A DNA stretch of 64,000 nucleotides from Phlegmacium glaucopus. Its lineage: Eukaryota; Basidiomycota; Agaricomycetes; Agaricales; Cortinariaceae. Positions within the stretch are counted from its first letter, which is position 1. The number at the start of each line of letters is the position of its first letter. Shown piece by piece: positions 33,446 through 52,000 of this stretch. The position numbers and the translations under genes were made by a program. The notes beneath the pieces are model-generated. The model worked only from the letters and a program-made list of their open reading frames with translations, ran no database searches and was not told where the DNA came from. The stretch is taken from positions 1 to 64,000 of the forward strand of contig MU130243.1 in the NCBI GenBank assembly GCA_015039465.1, read 5' to 3'.

Positions 33446-33904
33446 GTGTGCGCCTCCCCCCCTGTGTCATTTACTGTAAAAAAGGTTAGTGCCATGTCAA
33501 AAGTGTAAAATATAGTTTGATGCACAAGTACCTCTTGTTTGCTCCCCTCTATATTTCGTGCGCCTAATCTCAGCTGTAGAGATCAATTTATGGAAAATAA
33601 TGGTCTAGCATTCCATGATAGACACACGCACAATATATTTGCTTTTACATGGCCCAAGTCCTTGCGACACCTCTTCACCTGCCGTTCTTTTTCATCGTCT
33701 TTACACATGTCTTGCGCGCAATTGGGAAAAGAACGGACCCTGTGTGTCTTATCGCTAACTTCTAAGCAGTTTATAAGCCATGATTCGGTGGTACTAGCAC
33801 ATGTTTAATAGTTCCTGACTAGTTATTTAGCAGTCTCGAAGCTCGGGAGGAGAATGTTGCATCTGCCACCTTACCTTGCCGGCTCGGAGAGGCAAGGGAG
33901 GTCG

Positions 33905-34230
33905 TGTTGGATTACAAACCGTTCATTGTCAGGAACATGAGGTATTTTTATCCATATTTCTCTTACTCATACAATTCTTCATTCCATTCCTGCTTCGTAA
34001 CCACGTTCACTCGCATACCGTAGTTCTCCGAGGATGGAGAGAATTTCCTTCATATATGATACATTATTTGTTTGTCATAACCTCAGTCCTTTTATTCGGA
34101 GACTGAGGTTCGTACCACTACTTTACTGTTACAGCTTTGGTCTGACTATAGTAATAGTTTACTTTGTTCAATAGGTATAGAATACCAATACAGTCCTTTT
34201 ATTCGGGGACTGAGTTTACTTTGTTCAATA
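33905..34230 (+). repeat. copia 5' LTR, with intron-like segment and appended spliced-form unit
   Basis: It begins TGTTGGATTACAAACC. The palindrome at 34081-34108 (CAGTCC...GGACTGAG type) is followed by a GT...AG segment 34108-34157 and the tail TTTACTTTGTTCAATA (34158-34173). After a short linker, the same palindrome (34191-34214) joins directly to the same tail (34215-34230). The 3' LTR has only palindrome plus tail, so the two LTRs differ by about 117 bp. Confidence 0.85.
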
Positions 34231-34243
34231 GGTTATGGGCCCC
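34231..34243 (+). promoter_or_regulatory. Primer-binding site, initiator tRNA-Met anticodon-stem type
   Basis: GGTTATGGGCCCC directly follows the 5' LTR. GGTTATGGGCCC is complementary to the anticodon arm of eukaryotic initiator tRNA-Met (GGGC(C/T)CATAACC), the half-tRNA priming described for Drosophila copia, rather than to a tRNA 3' end. Confidence 0.65.
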
Positions 34244-34316
34244 GAGCTCAGTCTTTAAAACAAAAGAAACTATTTGAATTGTTTTTGCTATTCCATCCAC
34301 TGCACAATCCAATACA

Positions 34317-37300
34317 ATGTCTACTTCTACAAAACTTGGCGACGAATTCCTTCGAATTCCAAAGCTCGACGCATCCGGCTCTAACTGGGTTATTTTCAAA
34401 GATTGTTTTCTGTGGTCAATTGATGCCTGTGGTTTTCTTGATCACCTCGAAGAACTCAATGGAGAACTGATCTGTCCCGTTGTTGATCCGGAGGGAACGT
34501 TAAGTGATGCAGAGAAATTGTTAGTTAAAGAGTGGAAAAGGGAGATGAAAGAATGGAAACAAAGTGAAGCGATCGTCAAACAACAAATCGCAAGCTCTAT
34601 TCCGGACTCACTTTTTATGAAAATCCGTTCCAAAGGGACAGCCTATGAATTTTGGCAGAATTATCCAAAAACTTCCAAAACAAATCTCGAATGGTCTCAG
34701 TCGATCTACAAAGACGCATGCAAGAACAGAGGTGCCCGGAGAAGGGCGACGTAACCACCCATTTTTCCACACTCCGAACTATGCGTGAAGATCTAGCGTT
34801 GATGGGTCAGTCTTTAACAGAAAATGACTTTTATGCCATAATACTGGGCTCCTTACCTTCATCATACGACCCATATATTGTTGGAATATCGAGCACACCG
34901 CAAGACATTGTTGGGTGCCCGGACCTTACATTCTTGTGGCCCACTAGTCCCTTTTTACCTCGTATCATTCCAGACCATTCCTAATTCCACTTTATTGTTT
35001 CGTATCTACATAAGTACATAGTTATAATAATGAATACCCTCGCGCGATTGCGAGGGTCCACTGCTATCCCGAGTGAGCTTGTAGAACAGCTCATTTTAAC
35101 ATATATTTCCACTGTAAATGCCACCTCGAGCGTCCTAGGAAAAACCCTGTCAGCCAACGATCTCATGCTTACAATAACTAAAGAATACGAACGCCAAAAT
35201 TTGAAGTCCAAAATTGGCAAGAAGGACGAAAATGTCGCCTTCTACTCCAACAATTCCGGGAAGGGTTGTAGGGGAGGTTCTAGCTCAGGTTTGAGCTCCA
35301 GAAAAAGCAGTGTCAAATGTTTTAATTGCCATAAAAAGGGGCATTATGCGGCTGATTGTTGGGCACCGGGAGGTGGAAAGGAAGGACAGGGTCCCAAACA
35401 AAAGGGGAAGTCAAAAGCAAAAGCAAAGAGTGGAGAGACCTCAGCCACAGCGAAAGAGAAAGTAGACAAAATAGAGGAAGCCTGGATGGTAGCCCTAGAC
35501 GACTTCTCTGACCCTGAAACCAAACACGATGCAGACATAGCACTCAATACTGACCTAGCCGATATTGATATAGACGATATCTATTTATTGGAACCAGACC
35601 AACACTTGGATTTCGATGAAATGAGCGACGTACCTGATCTTCTTGAAGATTATATTGATCCAGAAGACGATATTTTCAATGACAACTGGGAAGACTTCAA
35701 TAATACCTCCCCAGATGCTGCATACACGAGTCTTAACTCCATACTAAACCAACTGGAGTCAAGATCGACCTGTACGATTCGGGCACTACTCGTCATATGT
35801 CCGGATTTCACCATAAGTTCATTAACTTCGTCGAAACTGAACCAGTGCCTATTACCGCGGCTGATACACAAACATTTGAGGCCACTGGGAGAGGAGATAT
35901 GTATATTTACATACCTAAAAGGGGAGAGCAATCTTGTGTCCTCTTGAAGGATGTATTGTACTTGTTGTCTATGAAGGTCACATTGGTATCAATAAGCCAA
36001 ATGACCAACGCCGGGTCGACAGCGCTATTCACCAGAGACATTTGCCAAATCTATAACAAAGAAAGGGAGATGGTGGGGGAAATCAAAGTAAAGGGGGGAC
36101 TTTACCGGGTATTTACCACAAACTTGGAAATGAACGCATATACCTCAAATGCAAAGGAAGGCCTATCTATAAATGAACTGCACCGCCAACTCGGTCATGT
36201 ATCGCACGAAAGAGCCAAACTGTTAGTCAGGAAAGGTCTTGTCAAAGGTGTTGATTTAGACGCCGGTAGTGAAGCTGGGGCTTGTGAGTCTTGTGAGTGG
36301 GCAAAAGGAGAATGAAGAGCAGTAATGAAGGTTTGAGAGGAAGGAAAAAGTGTTGCTGTAGGAGATGAAATCCATTCCGATTTATGGGGGCCAGCTCCTG
36401 TTGAATCTATCAACCGGAAGAGATATTTTATCAGTTTTACAGATGACTACAGCAAATACACGAACATCCACTTTCTCCAAACCAAAGACGAAGCTCTGAA
36501 CTTCTACCAAATTTACGAGGCCTGGTTATCAACTCAGTATAACACTCGCATAAAGTGTCTGCGCTCGGATCGAGGGGGAGAATATCTAAGTGAAGATTTT
36601 TCCAATCACCTCAAGAAAGCTGGGACAATTAGACGACTTACGGTTCATGATACTCCTGAACATAACGGTGTCGCCGAGCACCTCAATCAAACTATACTTG
36701 AAAAGGTTTGAGCAATGCTTCATGAATCCGATCTTCCTAAATTCCTATGGGCTGAGGCTACAATGCATGCAGTTTATTTAAAAAATTGTACCTGGACTCG
36801 AAGTCTCAAAGGAACGACCCCTTACGGAGTCCTGAACAACCAGAAGCCCAACCTTTCCAACCTACAACCCTGGGGATGTAAAGTCCGAGTACACGATCCG
36901 AGCGGCTCAAAACTAGACGGGCGCTCAAAGATTGGCAGATGGATGGAGTTTGACCCTGATACCAAAGAGGGACACTGTATCTACTGGCCAGAGAAGAGGT
37001 CCGTAACTGTTGAGAGAAGCGTCAAATTCAATTTTGAAGATGAAGAGATAAGAATTGGGATCATACCTTTTGAGGAAGAAGTTGGAGATGTTGAATCAAC
37101 GAAAGAGAAAGCCGAATTGATCCCCGAAATACCAGAAATTCCAGAAGTTGAGGACGTCACCGAACAACCAAACGATGAACCAATCGAAGTAATTGAAGGA
37201 AGAGGGAAGCACGTTCGCAAGGAATCTGGGTATATCAAGAGGTTGAGAGGGGGAGATGGCATAACAGGGGAGAGAGGAGTACTTCCCAAGGGTTTGCAGA

Positions 37301-38368
37301 AAGGATCAATAGTCGAAGTCAATCTTGAGGAAGGAAGGGTTGGTGATGTGGCGATTGAAGAGTATGCAATGGCGAGTGCAATTGGAGGTGCTGAGGGGAT
37401 TGAACCCACGTATGACGAAGCTAGAAGACGTCCAGATTGGCCTAAGTGGAAGGAAGCCATCGAGATTGAGCTCAACAATCTACAAAAATCCGGCACTTAC
37501 AAGCTAGTCAAGAGGCCTCCAGATGCAAATGTGGTCGACAACCGATGGGTACTTCAAATCAAAAAGAATGCCGCTGGCGAAATTGAAAAGTATAAGGCTC
37601 GATTAGTTGCAAAGGGATTCACCCAAATATACGGTATCAATTACTATAAAACCTATGCACCAGTGGCGAAACTTGCATCTTTTCGACTACTTCTTGCACT
37701 TGCTGCTCGCAACGGTTGGCCTGTCGACACATTCAACTTCGATTCAGCCTATTTAAATAGCCCATTGGGAGAAGGCAAAATGATATACCATGAGCAACCA
37801 CCAGGTTATGAGACGAGAGGACGAGAGTGGGTTTGGAAATTGCTGAAGACGCTGTACGGATTGAAGCAAGGTGCAAAGAACTGGTACAAGGCGCTTAATC
37901 AGGCGCTAAACGAATTGGGGTTTACCAGAACGGAGGCAGACCATGGGGTCTTCTTTAAGCGAGTTGGAGAGGCGGTGATAATACTGGCAATACACATTGA
38001 CAATTGCATGGTAACTGGGAGTTTGCAAAAGCTCATTAACGGCTTCAAAATTGAGATGGACAAGAAATACAAACTCACCGATCTTGGAGCAGCTCACTGG
38101 CTCCTCGGTTATCAAGATCAGTCGTGATATTGCCGACAAGACCATTTCCCTATCCCAACATGCCTACATCGATTTGATAATCACCAGGTTCAACTTCAAT
38201 GATTTGAAGCCTTCGTCGATCCCGATAGATCCATCAGTTCCATTACTAAAATCCCAATCACCTGCCAAAATCGAAGACATAGTCAGGATGAAGAACGTAC
38301 TGTATAGAGAAGCCGTCGGCTCACTGATGTACGCAGCCATTTCAGCGCTTGGACTTGGCACGGTTTGA
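34317..38368 (+). pseudogene. copia gag-pol polyprotein (degraded)
   Basis: gag starts MSTSTKLGDEFLRIPKLDAS. The CCHC knuckle is CFNCHKKGHYAADC (about 35317-35358), the protease motif DSGTTRHMS, the integrase core WGPAPVES...FTDDYSKYTN...LRSDRGGEYLS, and RT runs from NRWVLQIKKN to LYGLKQGAKNWYKALNQ. The RT active-site block reads HIDNC, with the second catalytic Asp changed to Asn at 38002-38004 (a G-to-A change in a CpG). TGA replaces Arg at 36313, 36334 and 36709. Frameshifts occur near 34720 and, by one extra base, near 38108. A solo LTR interrupts gag at 34879. It cannot make a working polyprotein. Confidence 0.9.
34879..35101 (+). mobile_element. Solo LTR nested in copia gag
   Basis: A 223-bp TGTTGGAATATCG...CATTTTAACA unit flanked by the 5-bp duplication TATAT (34874-34878 and 35102-35106). 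Removing it and one TATAT restores the gag reading SYDPYISTVNATSSVLG without a frameshift. It contains a hairpin ACCCTCGC/GCGAGGGT near its 3' end but not the intron-like duplication of the other LTRs. Confidence 0.9.
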
Positions 38369-38385
38369 GGGGGAGTGTTGGATTA

Positions 38386-38594
38386 CAAACCGTTCATTGT
38401 CAGGAATGTGAGGTATTTTTATCCATATTTCTCTTACTCATACAATTCTTCATTCCATTCCTGCTTTGTAACCACATTCACTCACATACCGTAGTTCTCT
38501 GAGGATGGAGAGAATTTCCTTCATATATGATACATTATTTGTTTGTCATAAGCGCAGTCCTTTTATTCGGAGACTGAGTTTACTTTGTTCAATA
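38386..38594 (+). repeat. copia 3' LTR, short form
   Basis: Same family as 33905-34230 but 209 bp: the palindrome (38555-38578) runs directly into the tail (38579-38594), without the GT...AG segment and without the second unit. Confidence 0.9.
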
Positions 38595-38790
38595 GGTCGC
38601 ATAGGAGGGAAGTAGGAGCAAAAACACCTTGCGTCTTTGATGGATGGCATGCAAATTCCATGTACTCTGATGTCGTCGTCATATTTGCTGTTAGATTTCC
38701 TCAAAGTGATAGCTGATACTCAAATGGCAATCCAGTCTCCGTCGACAAGCTATATTCTTTCTGTAACCGATCTGGCGTTGGCTCAAGGGG

Positions 38791-39159
38791 TATGCATGCA
38801 TAAACTCAGCTACACAACCTTGTTTTTTGTGTTTAAGGCTCCCCTCCCCACTTGCCTAATTAGGAAGGTCACATGATTTATATAATTATATTTTATGTTT
38901 TTTTTTTTTATAAAATTTAAATTAAATTAAAAAATTTATCACCACTTTTGACTCCCAACCATATACCCCACATCTTTTTGTGTTCATCATCACAGAACCA
39001 ACCTCCTGTTGGTCTTCCAAGTAGTCCTTGGCATGTGAGACAATACTAAAGTGATATTCATTTAGTAAAGAAAACTAGAAGAAAATAAGAAATTTACAGT
39101 CAATTTGTAAATTTAGACTTTGACAATGCTCATTGCTTAGAGAGAGAGAAAGGCATGGA
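38791..39159. other. Non-coding AT-rich stretch
   Basis: T-run and AAATTTAAATTAAATT at about 38897-38935. No gene seen. Block A homology has ended. Confidence 0.4.
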
Positions 39160-39492
39160 TGTCGAATAACAAACCGTATGTAATCACAATTATGCATCTT
39201 CATTATTTTCTCCTTCTATCTATTATTTATTCCGAGCCCCTCTTACTATTTATATTCTGCCTTGTATGACCGTCGTACAAACCCGTCACTCTCCGGGAAT
39301 GGAGAAGTTCTTATTTATATTGTTTACTCATTGTAGTCGTACCTCAGTCTATCTTTTCGAGACTGAGGTCAGTATCTATCCCTTTTACTTTACCACAAAG
39401 ACTCATAAAGTAGTAGCTTTATCTGTTCTATAGGTACAGCTAACAATAACACAAAGTCTATCTTTTCGAGACTGAGCTTTATCTGTTCTATA
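39160..39492 (+). mobile_element. Solo LTR with intron-like segment and appended spliced-form unit
   Basis: 333 bp, TGTCGAATAACAAACC...CTGTTCTATA, flanked by ATGGA (39155-39159 and 39493-39497). Palindrome 39342-39368 is followed by GT...AG segment 39368-39416 and tail CTTTATCTGTTCTATA (39417-39432). Palindrome 39455-39476 is joined directly to the same tail (39477-39492). Confidence 0.85.
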
Positions 39493-40240
39493 ATGGATTT
39501 ACTCAACAATGGCCTATTTTTGTTACATGTGACTTAGCTTTTTGATAATAATGTGTAAAATTAATATTATTTTGCTCAAAATGGGTTCATTCTAGATAAA
39601 AATGATGCAATATGTCTAATTTCTACATACTGTATGTAATTGGGTACTCAGTCACTTAAGGCCAATGTTTGAGTTTCTCCATGAAAAATTTAGATTTTTG
39701 AAAGAAAATTGTACATTTGTGTAGTCTAGCATCTTCGCTACCGTTTTTATGAGTTTTGTATCTTTAAGCACAGTATTTACCCCTCCATGAATATTTCACG
39801 AACGTGTGTTGGATTTGGAACCGGTTACCTAGTACCCGGCCACATGCATCACAGCATGTCACAGGGCCTGTCAGCTCGTTTTCAAAGCTGATATCTTATT
39901 GATAAGCGCTTGCTTGTTGACAACGACCTCAGCCTCACTTCCTCTTCCGCAACGAGTAGTGAGGTTCAAGTGGAGGCTCAGAACTCATGAGATCTGCTCC
40001 TGTGCCTCCTGATAGCTGGATGTTGGTTGCCACATTCAACATGTTTGGTATGGGTTCAGGAGCAGCAACCTGTTCCCTAGTCATGTCCACAGTCTCCGTT
40101 TCAGCGGCTGGTTGTTGAGTTACCTTGCGCAGTTGATGTAGGCCCTTTCCTTTCTGCTGCTTGGCTTACCGGAAAATAAGGTCAGGTTTCTACTGAAAGC
40201 AAGTAAGTGAATTTACTTACCTGTCTTCCGTGTGACTGAT

Positions 40241-40564
40241 TGTTGGGATTTATGAGTTTTGACTTGTTATTCATTTATTGTTTCATATTGGATATCTTAT
40301 CATTTCTTTCATTCATCTATACGTGACGATAAATGTTACCTAATCACTCCTTTTAGTCACACTTTATTTTATATAGCAAGTCTCAACTTTATACCAAAGT
40401 TGAGATGTGAGTTCAGTTGAATATCTTGTTCGTTATTATATCTAACAACTACCTAGTTACATTCCTATTTGTTCTAGGTATATATATATTAATACACTCC
40501 AACTTTATACCAAAGTTGAGACTTACATTCCTATTTGTTCTAGCTGCGAAATATTACAGCAACA
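40241..40564 (+). mobile_element. Solo LTR in the pogo gene, with intron-like segment
   Basis: 324 bp, TGTTGGGATTTATG...ATTACAGCAACA, flanked by CTGAT (40236-40240 and 40565-40569). The palindrome TCTCAACTTTATACCAAAGT (from 40381) is followed by GT...AG segment 40407-40456 (with CTAAC branch-like sequence) and tail TTACATTCCTATTTGTTCTA(G) (40457-40477). The palindrome at about 40499-40522 is joined directly to the same tail (40523-40543). Confidence 0.85.
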
Positions 40565-42102
40565 CTGATTCCCCTGTTTCTGTAGCACTATTGTCTTCAT
40601 CTGACCCTTCAGAGCTGGATTTGACATGTCTTCCCTTGCCCTTGGCAGCCTTCACCCTCACCACTTTCCTCCTTTTTTCCTCCTGCAATGCCTTCTTCTT
40701 CAGTGCTACCTTGTAATCTTCCACATATTTTGCCACATTTGCCATCTCTCATCTCCGTGCTGCCTCTCCCTTCTCTGCAGCTGCTTGAGCCTTCTTCTCC
40801 TGGGCCACCCGTCGCTTTTCCTCATCTGCCCTCATCTTTTCCTGCACTATAAGATCACGGTAGTACTCCTCAATTTCCTCGTGCTTTCGCTTGAATGTTG
40901 GCTTTGCCTTATCATGGTCCACCTTCATCTTTGCATGCCAATCTGCCTTTGCACCTTCATCTAATGACTCATCTGAGGTCATGTGGCATGCCTCTGCTGT
41001 TGTACATTTATCCTCCTTCTTCTTTTGCTTCCAATGTAATCGCTGACGCAGCTGCTTGTTCTCTTGGTCCATCAGCCGTTTCTGGGCATGATCTCGCTGA
41101 ATCTGCTCCTCCGCAAGCTTGAGTAGCTGAAATAGCTCCTTGTTTTGCTCGCAAAGCTCCTGACGTGATGCAGTGCCCTTTAATGGCTTCGGGACCTTCA
41201 ATTTGAGTCTGGGTAAGTTGCCTTCATTGTCGTGAGGAGTTTGAGAGTCTGAAGACAAGATGGCAGGTCCACCCACGGTTGCATTGGATGAACTTGGGAC
41301 ATGTGATGGGGTGGTTGCCTCTGTGGGGGTGGTAGCTGTGATAGTGACAAGCTCGGCAGATGGAAAAGTTATTGGTAAGGGCTGAGCTGCCTGCATTGTA
41401 GTATTTAATGAAGGATCAAAAACATGTGGGTCGAGAGCGTTGCGATTTATTGGCCATATGCCTGTCTTTTTGAATGATGAACAAATTGTTTCACATTTGA
41501 ATGCTCGCTGTTATGAACTTCCTTTTTCTTTCCTTAACTCCTCTGAACACATTCCCGTTTCACCTACATGCGCTTCACTTCATCTTTTCATTACCATCCA
41601 CACATGCCTACCTCACTTCTTTCATCATTTTACCTATTATTACATATGCATACCTTCTTACATGCTGATGCCTCACCTTATGCATGACCCTTCTATTTAC
41701 TATAAATACCCTAGTCACAACTCATGTATTCCCTTAGCTAATTCTTGAGAATATAACACGGTTACTTTCTACTCAAACTCTCTCAAACTCTTAAGACAAT
41801 TCCTCGAGACTTCTCTCTTGGTATTCTTTTGAAGCTCATTGAATGACAAACCGATCCTTTATACAACTGTCTATGGTCAGAACTATCTGAACCGTTCAAA
41901 GTTGTAACAAAAGAATTAGCTACTACATTTCTATACACTCTCTTCTTAGAAGTGTTGGTTATATCTAGCCGAAACTGAAACCAACAAAACAAAACAAAAC
42001 CGAACAAATACTGTGAAAGGAGAAATACCTGAGCCAGTATAAGAAGCAAAGAGCAAGGCCGTCTTACTTCTACAGAACAAACCAAAACAAGAAGAATCAA
42101 CA

Positions 42103-42963
42103 ATGGCTGGAGAAGCTTCATCCGCTCCCCATGTCCTGAAAGAACTCAACATCAACAAACCAACACCTTTTACTGGTGACCGACGCAAAGTAAAAACATT
42201 CTTACAAGAATGCAGAATATACTTAACCGTCAACGACAAACTCTATTTTGAAGATGGACCAAAAATCACATTCATACTTTCTTTTATGAATGGCGGAGAA
42301 GCAGCTCAGTGGAAAGAAAGTTGGTTAGACAGTATCACCGCCACTGACGGAACGATCATCCTCCCAACCCTTGCTGATTTCTATGCAACCATCACCGAAC
42401 AATTCAAAGAAGTCAACCGAACCCAAGACGCCATACACAAATTGACTCATTTAAGACAAGGAAAGAAATCTGCCAAACAAGTCATCACAGAATTCTCTCT
42501 CTTGACCAGACAAGCAGGACTAGAAGAGAAAACCGACTCCAATAACATCCACTTGATTCACATGTTCCGAAATTTTTTGAATCCTTCCTTGTCAAGAAAA
42601 ATCCTAGTAGCCGACAACGTCCCCATGACGATCAAAGGCTGGAAAGACAGAGCGATTCAATATGACTCACAATACCAATTCGCCATGGCAATTTTACAAT
42701 CTGATCAACCAAACAAGAAACCATACGACCCAACATACCGAGAAGAAAAACCCAAATACGAAGGACAAAAATGGTCCTTGAACAGACAAAGCGACCCTGA
42801 CACAATGGATATCGACGCAATGAGTTATGAGAAACGAGGAGAATATATGCGCAAAGGCTTGTGTTTCAAATGCGACAAGCCGGGCCACATATCCCGAGAC
42901 TGCAAAGAAAAGAAGGGAGGATACCAAGGGAACAGAAGCCAAGGGTCTTCGAACAATAACTGA
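42103..42963 (+). pseudogene. gypsy gag
   Basis: MAGEASSAPHVLKELNINKP opens a 286-codon frame with gag core (TLADFYATITEQFKEVN; LTHLRQGKKSAKQVITEFS) and a CCHC knuckle CFKCDKPGHISRDC at about 42864-42905. TGA at 42961 (probably former CGA) cuts it; the same frame then continues to a TAA at 43121, adding SLIKGLSQDEHEKL. Most of the protein is intact. Confidence 0.85.
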
Positions 42964-43136
42964 AACAACAATCAGACCCAGCAAAAGAAACTCTTGGTCA
43001 AAGACATCCATTCCTTGATCAAAGGACTAAGCCAAGACGAACATGAAAAGCTCGCCAACCTCCAACTTGGCATCAATGAAGACAAAAAGATAGTTGAAAT
43101 TGAAGAAGAAGAGGATTTTTAAAGCGGAGATCTGAA

Positions 43137-46100
43137 TTGATGTCAGTTTCTCCCATGCTATCCATATCAAATTGCTTAGTACCTCGTTTAAATATTCACC
43201 GAATGAAAATACCTATTTCTATAACGAGCAAAACGCAAGGAGATCTGAAAATCATCGAACAAGCCTTTATCGACTCTGGCACAGACGGAAAATTCATTGA
43301 CCAAAACTTCATGAGAACACAAAAATTTACAATCAAGACCTTAAATGTTCCCATCAAAGTTTTTAACATTGACAGTACTCTCAACAAACAAGGCACAATC
43401 AAACATTACGTAAACCTCGAGATCAATGTACTAGGACGAAAGAAGATGAACCGACTTCTAATCACTGGATTAGGGAAACACAAGATTATTCTTGGTGCAA
43501 CTTGGCTCAAAGAAAACAATCCCAAAATAAATTGGAAGAAAGAAACCCTTACATGGCGTGAACCCGAACAAATGAAAGAAGAACAACCACGGAAACTGAT
43601 TTTCAGGACACCCTCTATCCCTACTACTGTTGAAGAAGAATATGATATTGAAGAATATCTTAATTGAACTCAAAACCCAACTGACAATGATGAAATATCA
43701 GTACTCGTCGCTTTTATTACTGGCGAAATGGACAACAAATATTGGATCAATGTGAAAACCTCTGCTTCACAAAATCTGGCTATGAAATATGACATCAAGC
43801 CTGACATCCCTGTCGAAGAAATTGTACCACCCGAGTATCATGAATACTTAGATGTATTTGATGAGAAAAAGGCGGACAGATTTCCTGAACCAAGACCTTG
43901 GGACCACAAGATCAAAATGAAACCAGACTTTGAACCGAAATCTTTCAAAATGTACAACCTCACACTGGCAGAACAAATTGAATTGGACAAATTCCTCAAA
44001 GAGAATCTGAATTGTGGATATATTCAGAAATCACATTCCCAAATGGCCTCACCTTTCTTCTTTGTATCTATGGTGCCAGCCACCTAGAGGCCGCTACTTT
44101 TGTACAAGGCGCCAAATAGGCTGGAGAATTTTTTTCAAAAGTAGCCCTAACCTAAGGGTGATTTTTGTAATGATCTTTGTACACCGTAGTGTCTTTTGTT
44201 GAAATTGTCATTCAAGAATTCCTTAATTTAGTACTATCATGAGCCAAAACTGTAAGTCTGTAACATGCAATGAAAACATCTGAATCTGCAAGGATAACCT
44301 GTTCAGGTATTGTGATTAAGTATGTTCAACACCCTGAAGACCGTACGAGTATGGGAAGATTATGTCGATGCAGGCATCCTCAACAGGTATGGATGCAAAA
44401 GATGCTCATGTTCCAGAGACTTTGGGCATAGATTAGATTAGATTATGGACCCTTAATTCCCCTTTTGAGACATGCACCATTTCATTCAACTCAAAATCAA
44501 ATAACTCTGTCAGTTTTGGTCCGATTGCTTATCCCTTTAACCAATTTGTAGCCCTCAATGAATGAAAGCGATTTGTTAAAGGAATAAGAATTTCTCCTTT
44601 TTTTGATGGCCCTATTTAGGTTGTACAAAAGTAGCGGCCTTTAGGCGACCGGCACCATAAGAAAGACGGAAAGCTTCGACCTTGCCAAGACTATTGATAC
44701 CTGAACAATCACACGATTAAAAACACTTATCCACTTCCACTTATCACAGAGATCATGGACAAACTCAAAGGCGCAACTTGTTTCACCAAGTTTGATGTCC
44801 TCAGAGGCTACAACAATGTCCAGATTGCGAAAGGAGATGAATGGAAAGCTGCATTCAAGACAAATCGAGGATTATGTGAACCAACAGTAATGTTCTTTGG
44901 AATGTGCAATTCACTGGCAACATTTCAAGCGATGATGGATTCTATCTTTGAAGATCTTATCGAAGGCGGCTATATCATTGTATACATGGACGACATCCTG
45001 ATCTTTGCAAAGAACAAAAAAGGTCTTACAGTTGTCTACAGGAAAATGATCTCTATTTGAAACCAAAGAAATGCAAATTCAATAAGAAGAAAGTCGAATA
45101 TCTAGGAATGATCATTGAAGAAGGCAAGATCTCTATGGACCCAACCAAACTCAAAGGTATCCGAGACTGGCCGACCCCTACATCTGTGAAAGAAGTACGA
45201 TCCTTCTTAGGATTTGGAAACTTTTACCGACGATTCATCCAACATTTCTCTGACTTATGTCAACCGCTGAATAATCTTTTGAAAAAAGATATGCCTTTTG
45301 AATGGACCGATAAATGCCAAGAAACTTTTGAACTCCTGAAACAATGCTTTACTGAGGAGCCAGTCTTACAAATGCCCGATCCGACCCGACCCTTCCAAAT
45401 CGAATCCAATGCTTTGAAATATGCATCAGGTGCAGTCCTTACACAGACAGACATGAACAGAGACCAACACCCTGTAGCTTTCTTATCAAAAAGCTTTTCA
45501 CCAACCGAACAAAACTACGAAATCTATGATCGTGAACTCCTAGCAATCATATGAGCTTTAACTGACTGGAGACATTACATTCTTGGATCTGAACACATGA
45601 CCACAGTCTATTCTGATCACAAGAATTTAACTTATTATTGAACCGCACAGAAACTGAACAGACGACAAGCTCGATGGTCATTGTTCCTCTCTGAATTCAA
45701 TGTCAACCTGATCCATCTACCTGGAACCAAGATGATCCTGACACTCTTTCCCAACGAGCTGATTTCTGTCCCAAGGACAACAATGACAATGAAGACATCA
45801 CAATGCTCCCTGATTCTTTATTTGTCAATCTGGTCGACCTTGATTTACAAGAACAAATAGCCAACTCTACCGATATAGACACCGACGCCGCTGATGCATT
45901 ACGCTCCTTACTCAAAAAGGGACCTTCTAATCTAAGGAATGATCTTGAACACTGGTCGACTGAGGAATTTATGGGAAAACCAATCCTGTTTTATAAAGGA
46001 AAAACTATATTCCCCAAAACTGAGAACTTTGTCAGAAATTAGTCAAACAATTCCATGATGCACCGACTGCAGGACATCCAGGAGAATTGGAGACTTACAA

Positions 46101-47301
46101 TTCTATTTCTCAACATTACTGGTGGCCAGGTCTTTGAACCTTCGTGAAGAACTATGTGAAAGGATGTTCCGATTGCCAACAGTTTAAAATCAACAGAAAC
46201 CCATTGAGACCATCTTTTCTACCGATAGAAGGACCGAAGGACTCTAGACCTTTTGCGAACTGTTCCATGGACTTGATCACTGACTTACCACCTATTGACG
46301 GCAAGGATGCTGTATTGGTCGTGGTCGACCACGGGCTTACAAAGGGGGTGATTCTTATCCCTTGCGCAAAAACTTGCACTTCAGAAGACATCACTCAATT
46401 TTTGCTCGACAACCTTTACAAATGATTTGGACTCCCCAACAAGATGATCTCCGACAGAGACCCTCAATTTACCGCCAAAGCCTTCAAAAACCTTTTCAAA
46501 CTACTCGGAATCGAACACATGAAAACAACGGCTTTCCACCCTCAATCTGATGGAACAACTGAACGTTTCAACCAAGAAATTGAAGCATACCTTTTTATTT
46601 ATTGCTTTGACAATCCGACAAGTTGGTTAACCGCCCTACCTACACTCAAATTTACCCACAACAACCGAAGACATTCTGGAAGAACACGAACTCCTTTCAA
46701 GTTGATCATGGGATCATCTCCTATCCCCATACCCCTTTCATTTGAAAACACACAATTCCCTGCCGTTGAAGAACGAACATGGAAATTACTCAAAGACCGA
46801 GAAGAAGCTCTAGCAGCACATGAACTAGCATGACACCGAATGGAGAACAGGATCAAATTGAACTTTAAACCATTCCGAGAAGGACAACTAGTTTGGTTAG
46901 ACTCCAGAAATTTAAAAACAAATTACAACAAGAAGATCACACCACAACGAGAAGGACCATTCCCTATTGAAAAAGTCCTTGGACCCCTCACTTATTGATT
47001 GAAACTCCCTGAAACATGGAAGATTCATAATGTTTTTCATGCATACCTCCTCATGCCATACATTGAAAATGAAGTACACAGACCAAATTTCCTTAAACCA
47101 CCTGCTGAAATTATTGATGGAGAAGAAGAATACAAAGTCGAAGCCATCATAGGACATAGAAAACGAGGACGTGGATACCAATTCAAGATCTGATGGAAAG
47201 ATTACCCAATCTCCGAAGCAACGTGGGAACCAGAATCACACATCAAAAATGCAGATGACATGTTGTCACTTTACAAACAAAGCCATCACCTCAACTTCTA
47301 A
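43137..47301 (+). pseudogene. gypsy pol with C-terminal chromodomain
   Basis: Protease FIDSGTDGKFID (about 43267). [14 protein letters not shown] and YMDD (44983-44994). RNase H with the catalytic ESDAS position now ESNAL (Asp to Asn, 45408-45410). Integrase with HDAPTAGHPGE...CSDCQQFK zinc site and D,D,E blocks (SMDLITDLP; MISDRDPQF; FHPQSDGTTERFNQEIE). Chromodomain YKVEAIIGHRKRGRG...WKDYP.SEATWEPE. In-frame TGA at 43665, 44695, 45552, 45639, 46135, 46423, 46831, 46996 and 47191 each stand where Arg is expected. Frameshifts lie near 45030, 45730 and 46036, and a MITE interrupts RT at 44071. Confidence 0.9.
44071..44657. mobile_element. 587-bp MITE with TA target duplication, nested in gypsy RT
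   Basis: TIRs of about 46 bp (TGGTGCC...GCCGCTACTTTTGTACAA) lie at both ends, with TA on each side (44069-44070 and 44658-44659), as for Tc1/mariner-type elements. Removing the element and one TA restores FFVSKKDGKLRPCQDY in frame. No coding capacity. Confidence 0.9.
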
Positions 47302-47500
47302 AACATGTGTTACACTTCTTACCAACATGAATGCATCGACTGGGAGTTCTTGAAATTCATTGACGTCATTGCCAAAATCGCCAACGAATTCGAGGATATA
47401 AGACTCGCCCTCGAAAAACAAAAAGACAATAATTTTGTACTTCCTGAATTTGACTTTGAGCTCAAATATTCTCGAATTTACAATTTCTCCCTTTGAAACC

Positions 47501-48121
47501 ATGCCTCAAACTCCTTCCTCGTCTTCTTCCTCTCACTGTACTCATCCTTGATCCCCGATTTTTGATTTCACGCACAACAAATTCTCTTCCTATGTACAAA
47601 ACCAACATGACATCAACAACCTCACTCCTTTCCTTCAAACAAACCCTGTCTTATACACCAAATTCCTGTATTTCCACCATGTCGACCAGAGCATCATACA
47701 AGCTAAGCGAGAACTTGAATATCTACAAACTCAAGCAGACACATTGTACGATAACATGGCTGGTTGTGGCCTAATTCAACAAATTGAACCATTCATTAGA
47801 CTCAAACGACGAAACCCCACTGGCTCAAGAAGACATTCTCCTTACCCTCTACGACAATCGTTTTCTCCCCTCCCTCTTCCCAACTCAAACACTTCTGGAA
47901 CACAACAAAACCCTATCATCATCGACGACGACGATGAAGTTGTTGTACAATGTCACTGTTCTATTTGCAATACTGACGGTCATCCCTCTCGACTATGTTA
48001 TTTTGCGGTCGGAGGAGAACAGATCATCTTTTCAGAAGAACGACCACTCACTGAATACCGACGATGCAACAATTGCCACGAGATAGGTCACGGATGGCAA
48101 CACTGTCCAGATGAACAATGA
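47501..48121 (+). pseudogene. gypsy third ORF with two CCHC zinc knuckles
   Basis: Downstream of pol a frame of about 206 codons starts MPQTPSSSSSSHCTHP and ends WQHCPDEQ. It carries CSICNTDGHPSRLC and CNNCHEIGHGWQHC, both C-x2-C-x4-H-x4-C, after an acidic IIIDDDDEVV stretch and a helical VDQSIIQAKRELEYLQTQ region. One TGA at 47549 interrupts the Ser-rich N-terminus (again a CGA-type site). Similar late zinc-knuckle ORFs occur in some basidiomycete Ty3 elements; the role is unknown. Confidence 0.65.
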
Positions 48122-48180
48122 GAAGGGTTATTCTTAGAATCTGAGTCAAATTCGGAGTCTTCAAGGTAAAATGGGGGTAA

Positions 48181-48459
48181 TGTTACAAACTTCCTTTTTC
48201 TTTCCTTAACTCCTCCAAATACATTCCCGTTTCACCTACATGCGCTTCACTTTATCTTTTCATTACTGTCCACACATGCCTACCTCACTTCTTTCATCGT
48301 TTCACCTATTATTACATATGCATACCTTCTTACATGCTGATGCCTCACCTTATGCATGACCCTTCTATTTACTATAAATACCGTAGTCACAACTCATGTA
48401 TTCCCTTAGCTAATTCTTGAGAATCTAACACGGTTACTTTCTACTCAAACTCTCTCAAA
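48181..48459 (+). repeat. gypsy 3' LTR
   Basis: Matches 41509-41787 with about a dozen differences. It ends against a different LTR-like sequence at 48460. Confidence 0.85.
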
Positions 48460-49016
48460 TGTTGAGAGTTGAGGCATAACCATATTGGGAAAGGCCACTG
48501 TGAACAGTGTTGAGAGCTGAGGCATAACCATATTGGGAAAGGCCGCTATGAACAAAGCGGTATGGGCGACGAGTAGGAGACTATGCCACAGATGCCACTC
48601 CATTGTACCACCAACATATAAATACCGTACCACCCCATAGACGTACCTCAGTCATTATAACAAGTGACTGAGGTACACTATCTTATTTCCTCTCTTACTT
48701 ACTTCATTTACTTACATTTACTGTACCTAGTATTGTCACATCATCATCTAGGTACGATAGACTAAAATATCAGTCGTTATAACAAGTGACTGAGTATTGT
48801 CACATCATCATCTAGCGCCATACTAAGATATTAGATTCTAACAGCAAGGGACTGAGTATTGTCACATCATCATCTAGGTACGATAGACTAAAATATCAGT
48901 CGTTATAACAAGTGACTGAGTATTGTCACATCATCATCTAGGTACGATAGACTAAAATATCAGTCGTTATAACAAGTGACTGAGTATTGTCACATCATCA
49001 TCTAGCGCCATCTAGG
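48460..49016 (+). mobile_element. LTR fragment with intron-like segment and a tandem array of spliced-form units
   Basis: It starts TGTTGAGAG, with a 48-bp duplication of its start (48460 and 48508). Palindrome 48646-48673 is followed by GT...AG segment 48673-48730 and tail TATTGTCACATCATCATCTA(G). Then linker plus palindrome (CAGTCGTTATAACAAGTGAC...) joined directly to the tail recurs, unit about 64 bp, at about 48752-48815, 48879-48942 and 48943-49006; a diverged unit lies at 48816-48878. No clean target duplication was found. Confidence 0.7.
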
Positions 49017-49096
49017 GTATTAGATTTGACATGACAAGTCTCACAAAACATAATATTTTTTACTGAAGAAAAAAACCCGTCTTCTACTTTGACTAT

Positions 49097-52000
49097 GCCT
49101 GGGCCAACCGCAACAAATTCGGGGGAGCTTGGACCACGGAAGAGGAAGGCCCCTTTGAATGATAATGGAGATCCAGTTACTGTCACTGTCAATACCAAAA
49201 ATAAAATTAAAAAAAAAACAGAAAATGGGTGAGTGCAGTTCCAAAAAAAAAACCCAAATCATCATGTAAACAAAAGCCAAAGTATTGCCCAAGTCTACAA
49301 AACAGCAAGCTAAGCCTGGGAACCCTTCCCATCAAAAAGTTTTACCTGTACCCAAAGTAGCGAGGCCTGCCACACGACGACCTTCAGTTGAGATTGTGGA
49401 TGTTTCAGATGACAATGAGCCTATCCGCAGACCAGCTCCGCGAAATCGTGATAGAATTATTGAGGCAATGGATAGTGATGATGAAGAGGATGGCGACGAA
49501 CCTGAGGATGACAATCCACCTCCACCCACCATGGATGTTGATGATGACAAAGAAGAGGAGGTACCGGAGGAGCCAGCGGTTGAAAGTGACGAGGCCAAAC
49601 TTGGTTTGTAATTGAAAACTGCTCGGAATATATTTTAGTAACCATTTATAAACCATAGAACATCTTATGGGCAAATGGAGCTCACCCATATATGTTTTCT
49701 TCAAAACCACCCCCCGCATTGAGTATATAGGAGGCTGTCGAGCTCATATATTTGAATGTGCATCCGGCAGATGCAAAGCTCGGAATGGAAGGGATGTGCG
49801 TCGCTTTATGGATAAAAGTGATAGGAACTCGACAGGCAACCTTCATAAACATGCTGAAGGTTGCTGGGGTGAGGATGCTGTTGCTGCTGCTGATGCTACT
49901 CGTGACGTTGATGCAGCTCGTGAAATCTTGATAAAGTCAAATATTAGAGATGGATCTATTACGGCGGAATTTCAGTGAATAGGCAAAGGAAAAGTGAGTT
50001 TCTCAACAAGGCAACATACCAAAAGCGAGGCACGGTGCATATCACTTGATTCATCCAAATCCTCCTTTGTCTGACCTAAATGCAAGTGCTGAAATCGTGT
50101 GGTGGGTGTCAGAAAATAAACGGCCATTTTCTATTGTCAACAACCATGGGTTTCAGTCACTAATAAAGACAGGACGTCCAGAATATCACATACCTTCTCC
50201 TGAGACTGTCTCCAGGGATGTGAAAAATGTCTTCGTCCGAGTACGCAAGCGTATTGCGAAGATGCTTCAGGTACATAAGTGATTAAATATATATTGTAAA
50301 TATGAGAGCTTACCATGCTGATAGGAGCATGATGGTGCTCTCAACTTCGCCACAGATGCATGGACATCTCCAAATAACAAGGCGTTCGTTGCAGTGTCTG
50401 TTCACTTCGAAAATAGTGGGGTGCTGGTGGCAATGCTGCTTGATGTTGTGGAAGTAGCTGAGTCGCACTCAGGTGCCAATCTTGCTCTTGCGTTCGCAAA
50501 AATTCTTGATGACTTTGGTATTAGTGACAAGGTAAGTAAATAAACATTCAAATTTTATTAAAACGACTCACTCTATACCAGATGCTGAGCTTATCTTGTG
50601 ATAATGCATCAAATAACGATACTATGATTGCAGAGTTAGCAAATCTAGTCGATGAATTTCCAGGAGCAGCAAACCAGACCCGGTGCTTCCTACATATCCT
50701 CAATTTAGTTGTAAAAAGTATTATACGGCAGTTTGACTTACCGAAATGACAAGCAGATGGCATTTTGGATGAGGCAAAAGCCGAACTTTGCAACTTGGCT
50801 GGGAATCTCGAGCTTGAAGAGCTGATTTCACAACAGGACTGCGATACTGATGACGATGATGATAACGAAGAGGGTTGGGTTGACGAGCGCAAGGAAATGA
50901 CAGTGATGGAGAAAGATGAACTTGATGAGAGTGTGGGACCATTGCGCCTCATGTTAACGAAGGTCAGCCCATTTCATCTGAGTTTGAAATTCTTTCATTA
51001 CTAATTGGGTTCTGCCAGTTGCGAAAAGCCGCGTTCACGATCAAAAACTCCACAACAATAATTCTACCTAAATGGTTTTCAACTCTCGAAGACTTAGGGC
51101 TGAGTGCTCGCATGATTCCCCGCAATGTTTCCACCCGCTGGAACTCAACGTTTGATATGCTTGATTTTGCTATTGATTACCGCGCCGCTCTTGATAGCAT
51201 CACCAGTGATCAAGATATGAAGTTGCGTCAGTTCAAATTAAGTACAGAAGATTGGGATACCGCAGTCCATTTGCGTGATGCATTGAAGGTATGGGTCTCC
51301 ATTATATTTTCTTGCTTATGCTAACATTAATTTGAAAGATATTCAAGGATGCAACCCTTTTTTTTTCACGAAGTACACCCAATCTCGCTATGGTTATTCC
51401 TGTCATGGATCACATCAACAAACATCTTGCCACCACTGCCACCGATGATGCCTGCCTGCTCGCATTAAAGGCTGCTTTAGCAATTGGGAAGAAAACACTC
51501 AACAGATACTATGATAAAACGGACTATTCAGAGGTTTTCCGGATTGCAATGGGTAAGTTTTGTTTTATTAAAAGCTATATTTATGAATTAAACTCTTTCA
51601 GTTCTGCACCCCCGACACAAACTCGAATACTTCAAGAATGCCAGTTGGGACGAAGAATGGATTTCCTCGGCACGAAACATTGTCAATGATGAATACAGGC
51701 AATCATATGCGTCGAGGGATGTCGTCCCAGACCCCGAAATTGAAATTCCTCCTCCAGTAAGTTGTTATGGTTAGGGAAATCAAACGGATGATTAACAATT
51801 AATTTTAGAGCAAATTTTCAACCTCAAAAAACATGTTCGACAACCTTCCCTCGCTATCCACACCACAACGAGAGCAACGCAGTGAGCTTGAAGGTATTTA
51901 AACACAGACATCGAGCTCATTGACGATCCTTTGTTGTGGTGGTTTGAGCATAGGCATGTGTATCCTCGTCTCTTGCGCATGGCGCTCGACTATCTATCTA

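Follow-up and report, generated by a model that had tools for sequence, protein, structure and literature searches.

LTR architecture in the window

We analysed a stretch of 64,000 nucleotides (nt) of the Phlegmacium glaucopus genome (assembly GCA_015039465.1, contig MU130243.1, positions 1 to 64,000 of the forward strand), in the following called the window. It contains long terminal repeats (LTRs) of four retrotransposon families, F1 to F4 (Table 1). In one LTR of each family a palindrome (P1) is followed by an intron-like segment (intron A, 49-58 nt), then a tail (T1) and a linker beginning with GTA, behind which palindrome and tail are found again as a contiguous unit (P2-T2). An earlier note, made from the letters of this DNA alone, had described the four segments; its coordinates are correct and each segment starts with GT and ends with AG. 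We also found, as it had reported, that P1 joined to T1 recurs downstream as P2-T2 in all four LTRs. P1 and P2 differ by 1 base in F1 and in F4, in the last base of P in F3 and not at all in F2, while T1 equals T2 in all four families. In the F1 element the 5' LTR has the complete structure, and the 3' LTR has P fused to T without introns.

The families are less distinct than the note had assumed when it called the LTRs unrelated and P and T completely different. F1, F2 and F4 have AGTC..GACTGAG in common (the F3 motif is AACTT..AAGTTGAGAY), and the 3' parts of the F2 and F1b LTRs are 71-73% alike. T2 is not generally the end of the LTR either: the F3 LTR reaches 40564, bounded by the target-site duplication (TSD) CTGAT, and the F4 LTR spans 48460-48843. 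The start of the linker had been compared with that of the primer-binding site (PBS). This does not hold in general, as AG|GTA follows T1 also in F3 and F4, where U5 lies behind T2, and a PBS remnant is thereby ruled out as its source. From its sequence the GTA behind T1 reads as a second splice donor.

Table 1. Positions of the LTR features in the window (putative features are marked as such).
Feature	Position	Strand	Remark
TSD GGTCG, left of F1 element	33900..33904	+	5 bp; repeated at 38595-38599
F1 5' LTR (copia), TGTTGG..CAATA	33905..34230	+	
F1 TATA-like box	34053..34059	+	~32 nt before P1
F1 ACCTC, U3 bases pairing with GAG|GT of intron A donor	34080..34084	+	predicted pairing
F1 P1, hairpin	34085..34107	+	putative first exon and RNA start
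F1 intron A (GTTCGT..CTGAC..TAG)	34108..34157	+	putative intron
F1 T1	34158..34174	+	putative micro-exon
F1 intron B: GTATAG linker, P2 and T2	34175..34231	+	putative intron; first G of PBS completes AG
F1 P2	34192..34214	+	copy of P1, 1 base different
F1 T2	34215..34230	+	copy of T1, LTR end
PBS GGTTATGGGCCC	34231..34242	+	
F1 3' LTR, intronless	38376..38594	+	P 38556-38578 fused to T 38579-38594
F2 solo LTR	39160..39492	+	TSD ATGGA on both sides
F2 P1	39346..39367	+	
F2 intron A (GTCAGT..TAGTAG)	39368..39416	+	putative intron
F2 T1	39417..39433	+	
F2 P2 and T2	39455..39492	+	P2 39455-39476, T2 39477-39492
F3 solo LTR	40241..40564	+	TSD CTGAT on both sides
F3 P1	40385..40406	+	
F3 intron A (GTGAGT..CTAAC..CCTAG)	40407..40456	+	putative intron
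F3 T1	40457..40477	+	
F3 intron B: linker, P2 and T2	40478..40543	+	putative intron; P2 40501-40522, T2 40523-40543
F4 LTR	48460..48843	+	inserted in Ty3/gypsy-type LTR (48181-48459)
F4 P1	48650..48672	+	~33 nt after TATAAATA; layout same in other F4 copies
F4 intron A	48673..48730	+	putative intron
F4 T1	48731..48751	+	
F4 intron B: linker, P2 and T2	48752..48815	+	putative intron; P2 48772-48794, T2 48795-48815
Extra P-T-linker units behind F4 LTR	48844..49031	+	rearranged

Occurrence in the genome and classification

The four window LTRs served as queries against the source genome (60.5 Mb, 259 contigs). The architecture is widespread: the order P1, a segment GT..AG of ~50 nt, T1, GTA linker and P2-T2 was recovered in 80 of 110 parsed pieces, corresponding to 79 distinct places (L017 and L058 are one place; L103, L107 and L108 lie outside the parsed set). 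The parser gave a bonus to GT, AG and GAG, so that GT-AG borders were preferred among equivalent placements. A seed detector without this preference found the architecture in 60 of 102 loci, and in 53 of these 60 one of the equivalent placements, of which there are 2.5 on average, has GT-AG borders; the other loci are L015, L066, L069, L072, L074, L075 and L099. In 195,800 bases of flanking DNA GT-AG occurred in 4 of 129 similar insertion events, a total inflated by tandem arrays. The AGTC-type P1 signature CCTCAGTC-N8-16-GACTGAGG has 146 genome sites versus 4 for the reversed control, and the F3 (AACTT-type) signature with donor has 78 versus 9. Judged on these counts of sequence matches, the repeated P-T architecture is not chance. 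The three pieces picked for a PBS behind a P1 site (L111-L113) show the same architecture with different T sequences. A perfect 5-bp TSD surrounds the whole structure in 25 of 53 LTRs without a PBS behind them; 3' LTRs among the 53 cannot show one, and L078 (415 bp) is doubtful. The PBS part AGGTTATGGGCC occurs 210 times in the genome versus 21 times for the reversed control.

Profile searches of the F1 element matched RVT_2 (8.5e-58), gag_pre-integrs and Pol_BBD; a Retrotran_gag_2 match of 24.2 bits stayed under the 27-bit cut-off. The gag_pre-integrs and SH3_retrovirus matches precede RVT_2, and the integrase core was unmatched in the open reading frames given. For F3 interiors we detected Retrotran_gag_2 (1.1e-13) with Pol_BBD in L073 and gag (6.4e-07) in L062, for an F2b interior gag (5.1e-28, L044), and for the interior of L072 no relevant domain match. 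By the copia-type gag and RVT_2 domains, with the reverse transcriptase seen only for F1, the families F1, F2b and F3 are Ty1/copia-like LTR retrotransposons. Like Ty1/copia elements they have copia-type gag or pol domains, LTRs starting with TG, a 5-bp TSD and a PBS directly behind the LTR. Unlike those, their LTRs hold two putative introns and appear to encode R once split and once contiguously. Among the best 120 of 3509 proteins related to the F1 polymerase the named organisms are mushrooms (Trametes, Cyclocybe, Agrocybe, Hermanssonia). A search of viral contigs for the copia polymerase gave 8 pattern stretches and 0 relatives, and the 16 stretches with the P1 pattern in viral contigs led nowhere. 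A known structured RNA was rejected as a candidate, with 0 matches in an Rfam covariance search of 33800-49200 at E up to 1.

Splice-like signals

In 68 of 78 copies intron A still has its GT donor at the border that coincides with the P2-T2 junction, and 65 of these donors are GTNNGY. Deleted segments with varying ends, which the note had named as the sign of chance deletion, were not what we observed; in the parsed copies P2 and T2 meet at what corresponds to the borders of intron A. The segment ends with AG in 74 of 78 copies as first parsed, and CTNAY was found in 77 of 78, though this is a loose motif counted without a shuffle control. At the sequence level intron A therefore combines the GT-AG borders and the branch-like motif of a spliceosomal intron. 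In six F3 copies (L069, L072, L074, L079, L080, L090) the donor is AT, which fits CG to CA decay.

Behind T1 we observed AG|GTA in 76 of 78 copies, a count conditional on the T1 end having been located by AGG[TC]A. The segment that starts there and runs from the GTA linker through T2, intron B, has a median length of 59 nt and ends with AG where the PBS or U5 follows. A branch-like motif lies near the end of P2, a median of 18 nt from the end of the intron (CTGAG in 52 of 78 copies, CTTAC in 10, or similar). In F1 and F2 the A of this AG ends the LTR and its G starts the PBS. This AG was seen in all 6 LTRs with a PBS behind them and in 7 of 30 elsewhere, as by chance (L113 left out). An AG specific to the 5' LTR is limited to these two families because that of F3 and F4 lies within the LTR.

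By established retroviral logic the part of a new LTR behind P2 has been copied from the RNA leader, as far as the PBS. This stretch reads P-T-(U5), and its template would therefore have been without intron A and without the linker and P2-T2. A second intron would be needed because otherwise the LTR would gain one unit per cycle. Intron B would thus also be removed from the leader.

Concerted change of the two copies

We compared copy 1 (P1, T1) with copy 2 (P2, T2) in 76 LTRs, dropping L017 and L058 (no clear start base), L106 and L109. The start base was set by AGT[CT], AACTT or ACCTT in P1, and the T1 end by AGG[TC]A (in one case AAATA). The identity of the copies has sharp edges: it was 0.13, 0.30 and 0.42 at positions -3, -2 and -1 and rose to 0.99 on the base that opens P. 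It dropped to 0.01 on the base directly behind P, where intron A faces T2. Along T it was 0.96-1.00, with 0.68 at the last base, where the F1 and F2 LTRs end, and 0.26 after T. Similarity within an LTR was 0.876 for P and 0.968 for T compared to 0.385 and 0.326 between LTRs, and 0 of 10000 permutations gave values as high. For T the own copy was the best match in 52 of 55 sets. Despite 28 distinct T1 and 33 distinct P1, P1 and T1 together were identical to P2 and T2 in 32 of 69 copies (without L053, L066-L068, L106, L109 and L111-L113), and 55 of the 73 differences were transitions, as expected from decay after insertion. Because of the sharp edges, the similarity within LTRs and the difference-free copies, P1-T1 appears to be the source from which P2-T2 is renewed, and the spliced unit appears to be what is copied. 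The note had considered that P-T units might accumulate; P2-T2 would instead be rewritten. In L082 the loop at the centre of P1 is inverted relative to P2 (TTTAGAATAAAG versus TTTATTCTAAAG), as though the hairpin had flipped once.

The junction before P2 and the proposed start of the RNA

In 8 groups of close relatives, which were chosen by us and comprise 43 of the 78 LTRs, we counted 23 changes in 32 columns (0.72) for the three bases before P2; the start base is less sure in some F3 copies, so that this count may partly be an effect of placement. The U3 flank had a rate of 0.26 per column, and P1, intron A, T1, linker, P2 and T2 had rates of 0.02-0.07. The signal was clean in F1b, F2a, F4a and F2c. 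In 4 of 4 pairs examined both LTRs of an element had the same linker, which makes reverse transcription the probable source of the junction variant. A variable junction of this kind would result if a strong-stop DNA ending at the 5' end of the RNA underwent strand transfer. P2 would then begin where the RNA begins, and the RNA would begin with P1. A TATA-like box starts at -34 in F1 (10/10), at -33 in F4 (9/9) and between -27 and -35 in F2 (15/16).

A predicted hairpin over the putative donor of intron A

The stem of P1 extends 5 bases upstream of the start base. In AGTC-type LTRs ACCTC (bases -1 to -5) pairs with GAG|GT in 98-100% of 42 distinct LTRs, and in F3 GTCTC pairs with GAGAC in 95-100% of 21 distinct LTRs, G-U pairs included. 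At P2, which is without such an extension, the same positions were paired in 0-71%. Duplicates were merged for this count, and L106, L109, L066-L068 and, for their short upstream sequence, L111-L113 were excluded. ACCTC/GAGGT, GTCTC/GAGAC and ATCTC/GAGAT are compensating changes. A local fold from the start of P1 had an energy of -3.2 kcal/mol with the GT unpaired at 0.79, and with 8 nt of U3 added these values became -15.2 kcal/mol and 0.23; P2 with 8 nt of linker gave -5.4 kcal/mol. In such local folds the GT was more hidden with U3 in 39 of 43 LTRs. In this folding model a hairpin completed only by RNA that contains U3 would mask the donor of intron A and keep the 3' LTR unspliced.

A comparable switch is reported in a study of foamy virus (Schrom et al. 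2013, PMC3694450). There the donor lies inside R; RNA that starts at +1 leaves it more accessible, and in the 3' LTR, where bases -13 to -1 lengthen the first stem, it is less so. In foamy virus the RNA that is replicated is the unspliced genome, and polyadenylation is what the switch controls. The LTRs studied here would be alike in that their predicted donor in R would be masked when U3 precedes it; they would be unlike in that the replicated RNA would itself be without introns.

Forms without introns

Eight pieces are without intron B only (L012, L013, L016, L036, L037, L062, L063, L077) and four without both introns (L008, L018, L104, L105); none of the examined pieces had lost intron A alone. 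An AGTC-type P1 followed by a base other than G was found at 10 genome sites. At three of them no intron is left (L018, L104, L105). Five retain it with an altered donor (L103, L106, L109, L110 and one in L011), and in L107 and L108 no T was seen. No loss count is given for F3, as the pattern for intronless F3 (133 matches) also fits reversed copies that contain the intron. The 5' LTR L030 has lost P2-T2 together with the first bases of the PBS through a deletion between short TAT repeats; its partner L024 keeps P2-T2.

Neighbouring elements and arrays

Positions 41509-48459 of the window hold a Ty3/gypsy-type element whose coding sequence is split over several frames. Its 3' LTR is broken by the F4 LTR, and F4 sits at the corresponding position in L091, another copy in the genome. 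The possibility that F4 is the LTR of the gypsy-type element was rejected, as it is an insertion within that LTR. The units at 48844-49031 are a local rearranged array. They are joined at a GACTGAG that the flank also has (compare L091), which looks like local unequal exchange. Elsewhere in the genome, L033 and L034 are F2 LTRs in opposite orientation ~7.5 kb apart, both with the TSD CCACC, and may be an inverted duplication. L024:1-700 consists of tandem repeats of ~56 nt with GTAAGT and TTTTGACAG, resembling an array of intron-like units.

Proposed cycle and alternatives

We favour the reading that R is encoded twice in these LTRs, once split (P1, intron A, T1, intron B) and once contiguously (P2-T2), and that the spliced leader rewrites P2-T2; we put its probability at about 75%. 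The architecture, the splice-like signals, the concerted evolution of the copies with its sharp edges and the hypervariable junction before P2 can be read directly from the DNA, and splicing, the RNA start and the transfer step would be what joins them. The first base of P1 would be where RNA polymerase starts. From the transcript of the 5' LTR introns A and B would be spliced out, giving a leader P-T-(U5)-PBS. The 3' LTR copy on the same RNA would stay unspliced, as U3 bases upstream of P1 would pair with the exon end and the donor GT. F1 and F2 would have an additional safeguard: the AG of intron B would be completed only where the 5' LTR meets the PBS. Minus strong-stop DNA made from the spliced leader would pair with P2-T2 at the 3' end of the RNA, and synthesis would continue across the linker, T1, intron A and P1 into U3. 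Both introns would be kept in every new LTR, whose P2-T2 would come fresh from the spliced P1-T1 of its parent, and bases gained or lost at the end of the strong-stop DNA would mark the junction before P2. A likely benefit would be that a poly(A) site near P2-T2 is intronic at the 5' LTR and not at the 3' LTR. It is also likely, in our view, that the 5' end of the replicating RNA regularly undergoes splicing while the introns are kept, the hairpin masking and the acceptor completed by the PBS telling the two LTRs apart. The core of the earlier note's proposal, a spliced leader and strong-stop copying, thus gives the best fit to the sequence evidence. Its single intron would not suffice, and the spliced copy is not appended behind the LTR: that copy is the R-U5 part inside the LTR, within the target duplication where there is one.

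Several observations weigh against this reading. The donor of intron B, GTAYAN in most copies, is weaker than the usual fungal consensus GTNNGT. Part of the masking is also obtained with a shuffled 8-nt U3 (-7.8 kcal/mol, GT unpaired 0.38), and 22 of 860 shuffles reach the real energy. In a longer fold (without L112 and L113) the GT went only from 0.33 to 0.21 unpaired, compared to 0.29 with shuffled U3, and the own U3 gave a lower value than the shuffled one in 39 of 62 cases. The GT of F3 is less hidden (0.56 unpaired), and F3 is mostly without a TATA-like box near -30. For P1 the best P2 match was the own copy in just 33 of 55 sets, with ties between near copies. Differences between P1 and P2 rise with age only weakly and not monotonically (rho 0.31, p 0.011). 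One group of the eight, F2b, was unchanged in the three junction columns and has its changes just upstream. The intronless forms are at best neutral, because recombination between direct repeats explains them as well as misplaced strand transfer.

The same loss forms would suit an old tandem duplication in which one copy was interrupted and the P and T pairs were homogenised by gene conversion. We regard this as unlikely, since conversion tracts are not expected to end at GT and AG borders and on a single start base in every family, or to yield a hypervariable junction common to both LTRs of an element.

A start of the RNA at P2 without any splicing, with P1, intron A, T1 and the linker belonging to U3 and the repeats kept alike in some other way, would also produce a variable strong-stop junction just before P2. 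It leaves unexplained, however, the joint change of P1 with P2 and of T1 with T2 between families, and the GT-AG borders. Moreover, the best TATA-like box lies 33-34 nt before P1 in F1 and F4 (TATAAATA in F4), whereas the best boxes before P2 are scattered (mean score 4.0 versus 4.7 before P1), and we consider such a start quite improbable.

Splicing could be confined to intron A, with intron B always retained and selection or slippage keeping the array length constant. The weak donor B would agree with this, and so would the extra units at the F4 locus of the window, which are expected if B is retained. Nevertheless U5, the PBS or flank lies behind T2 in the 80 parsed LTRs save L074 (short T repeats), L106 and L109 (piece ends), and the AG|GTA behind T1 is nearly constant. 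P-T-U5-PBS and P-T-PBS forms exist as well (L104, L105), though recombination could also make them. This alternative thus seems very improbable. That P, intron A and T are protein-binding or packaging motifs which merely resemble introns is hardly credible: palindromes in LTR control regions are plausible binding sites, but the P-T fusion at GT-AG borders, the GTNNGY donors and the paired change of P and T across families favour splicing.

As for the spliced and rewritten R, an LTR in which splicing assembles R has, to our knowledge, not been described. Our search, which covered titles and the openings of abstracts and had most subscription journals outside it, found no description of introns inside LTRs that are removed from the genomic RNA. 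The available part of PMC12786077 describes functional introns in the LTR elements Ogre and EVADE, which make subgenomic RNAs by alternative splicing and do not lie in the LTR. On that account the elements studied here would resemble Ogre and EVADE in having a retrotransposon RNA with introns and differ from them in carrying these inside the LTR.

If our reading is true, it would show introns persisting for many generations inside the repeated ends of a retroelement, while introns are normally lost upon reverse transcription of RNA. One and the same sequence would be handled differently at the two ends of the same RNA. Furthermore, the record of P1 and P2 would print past splice junctions and RNA starts into the DNA, where they could be read without RNA.

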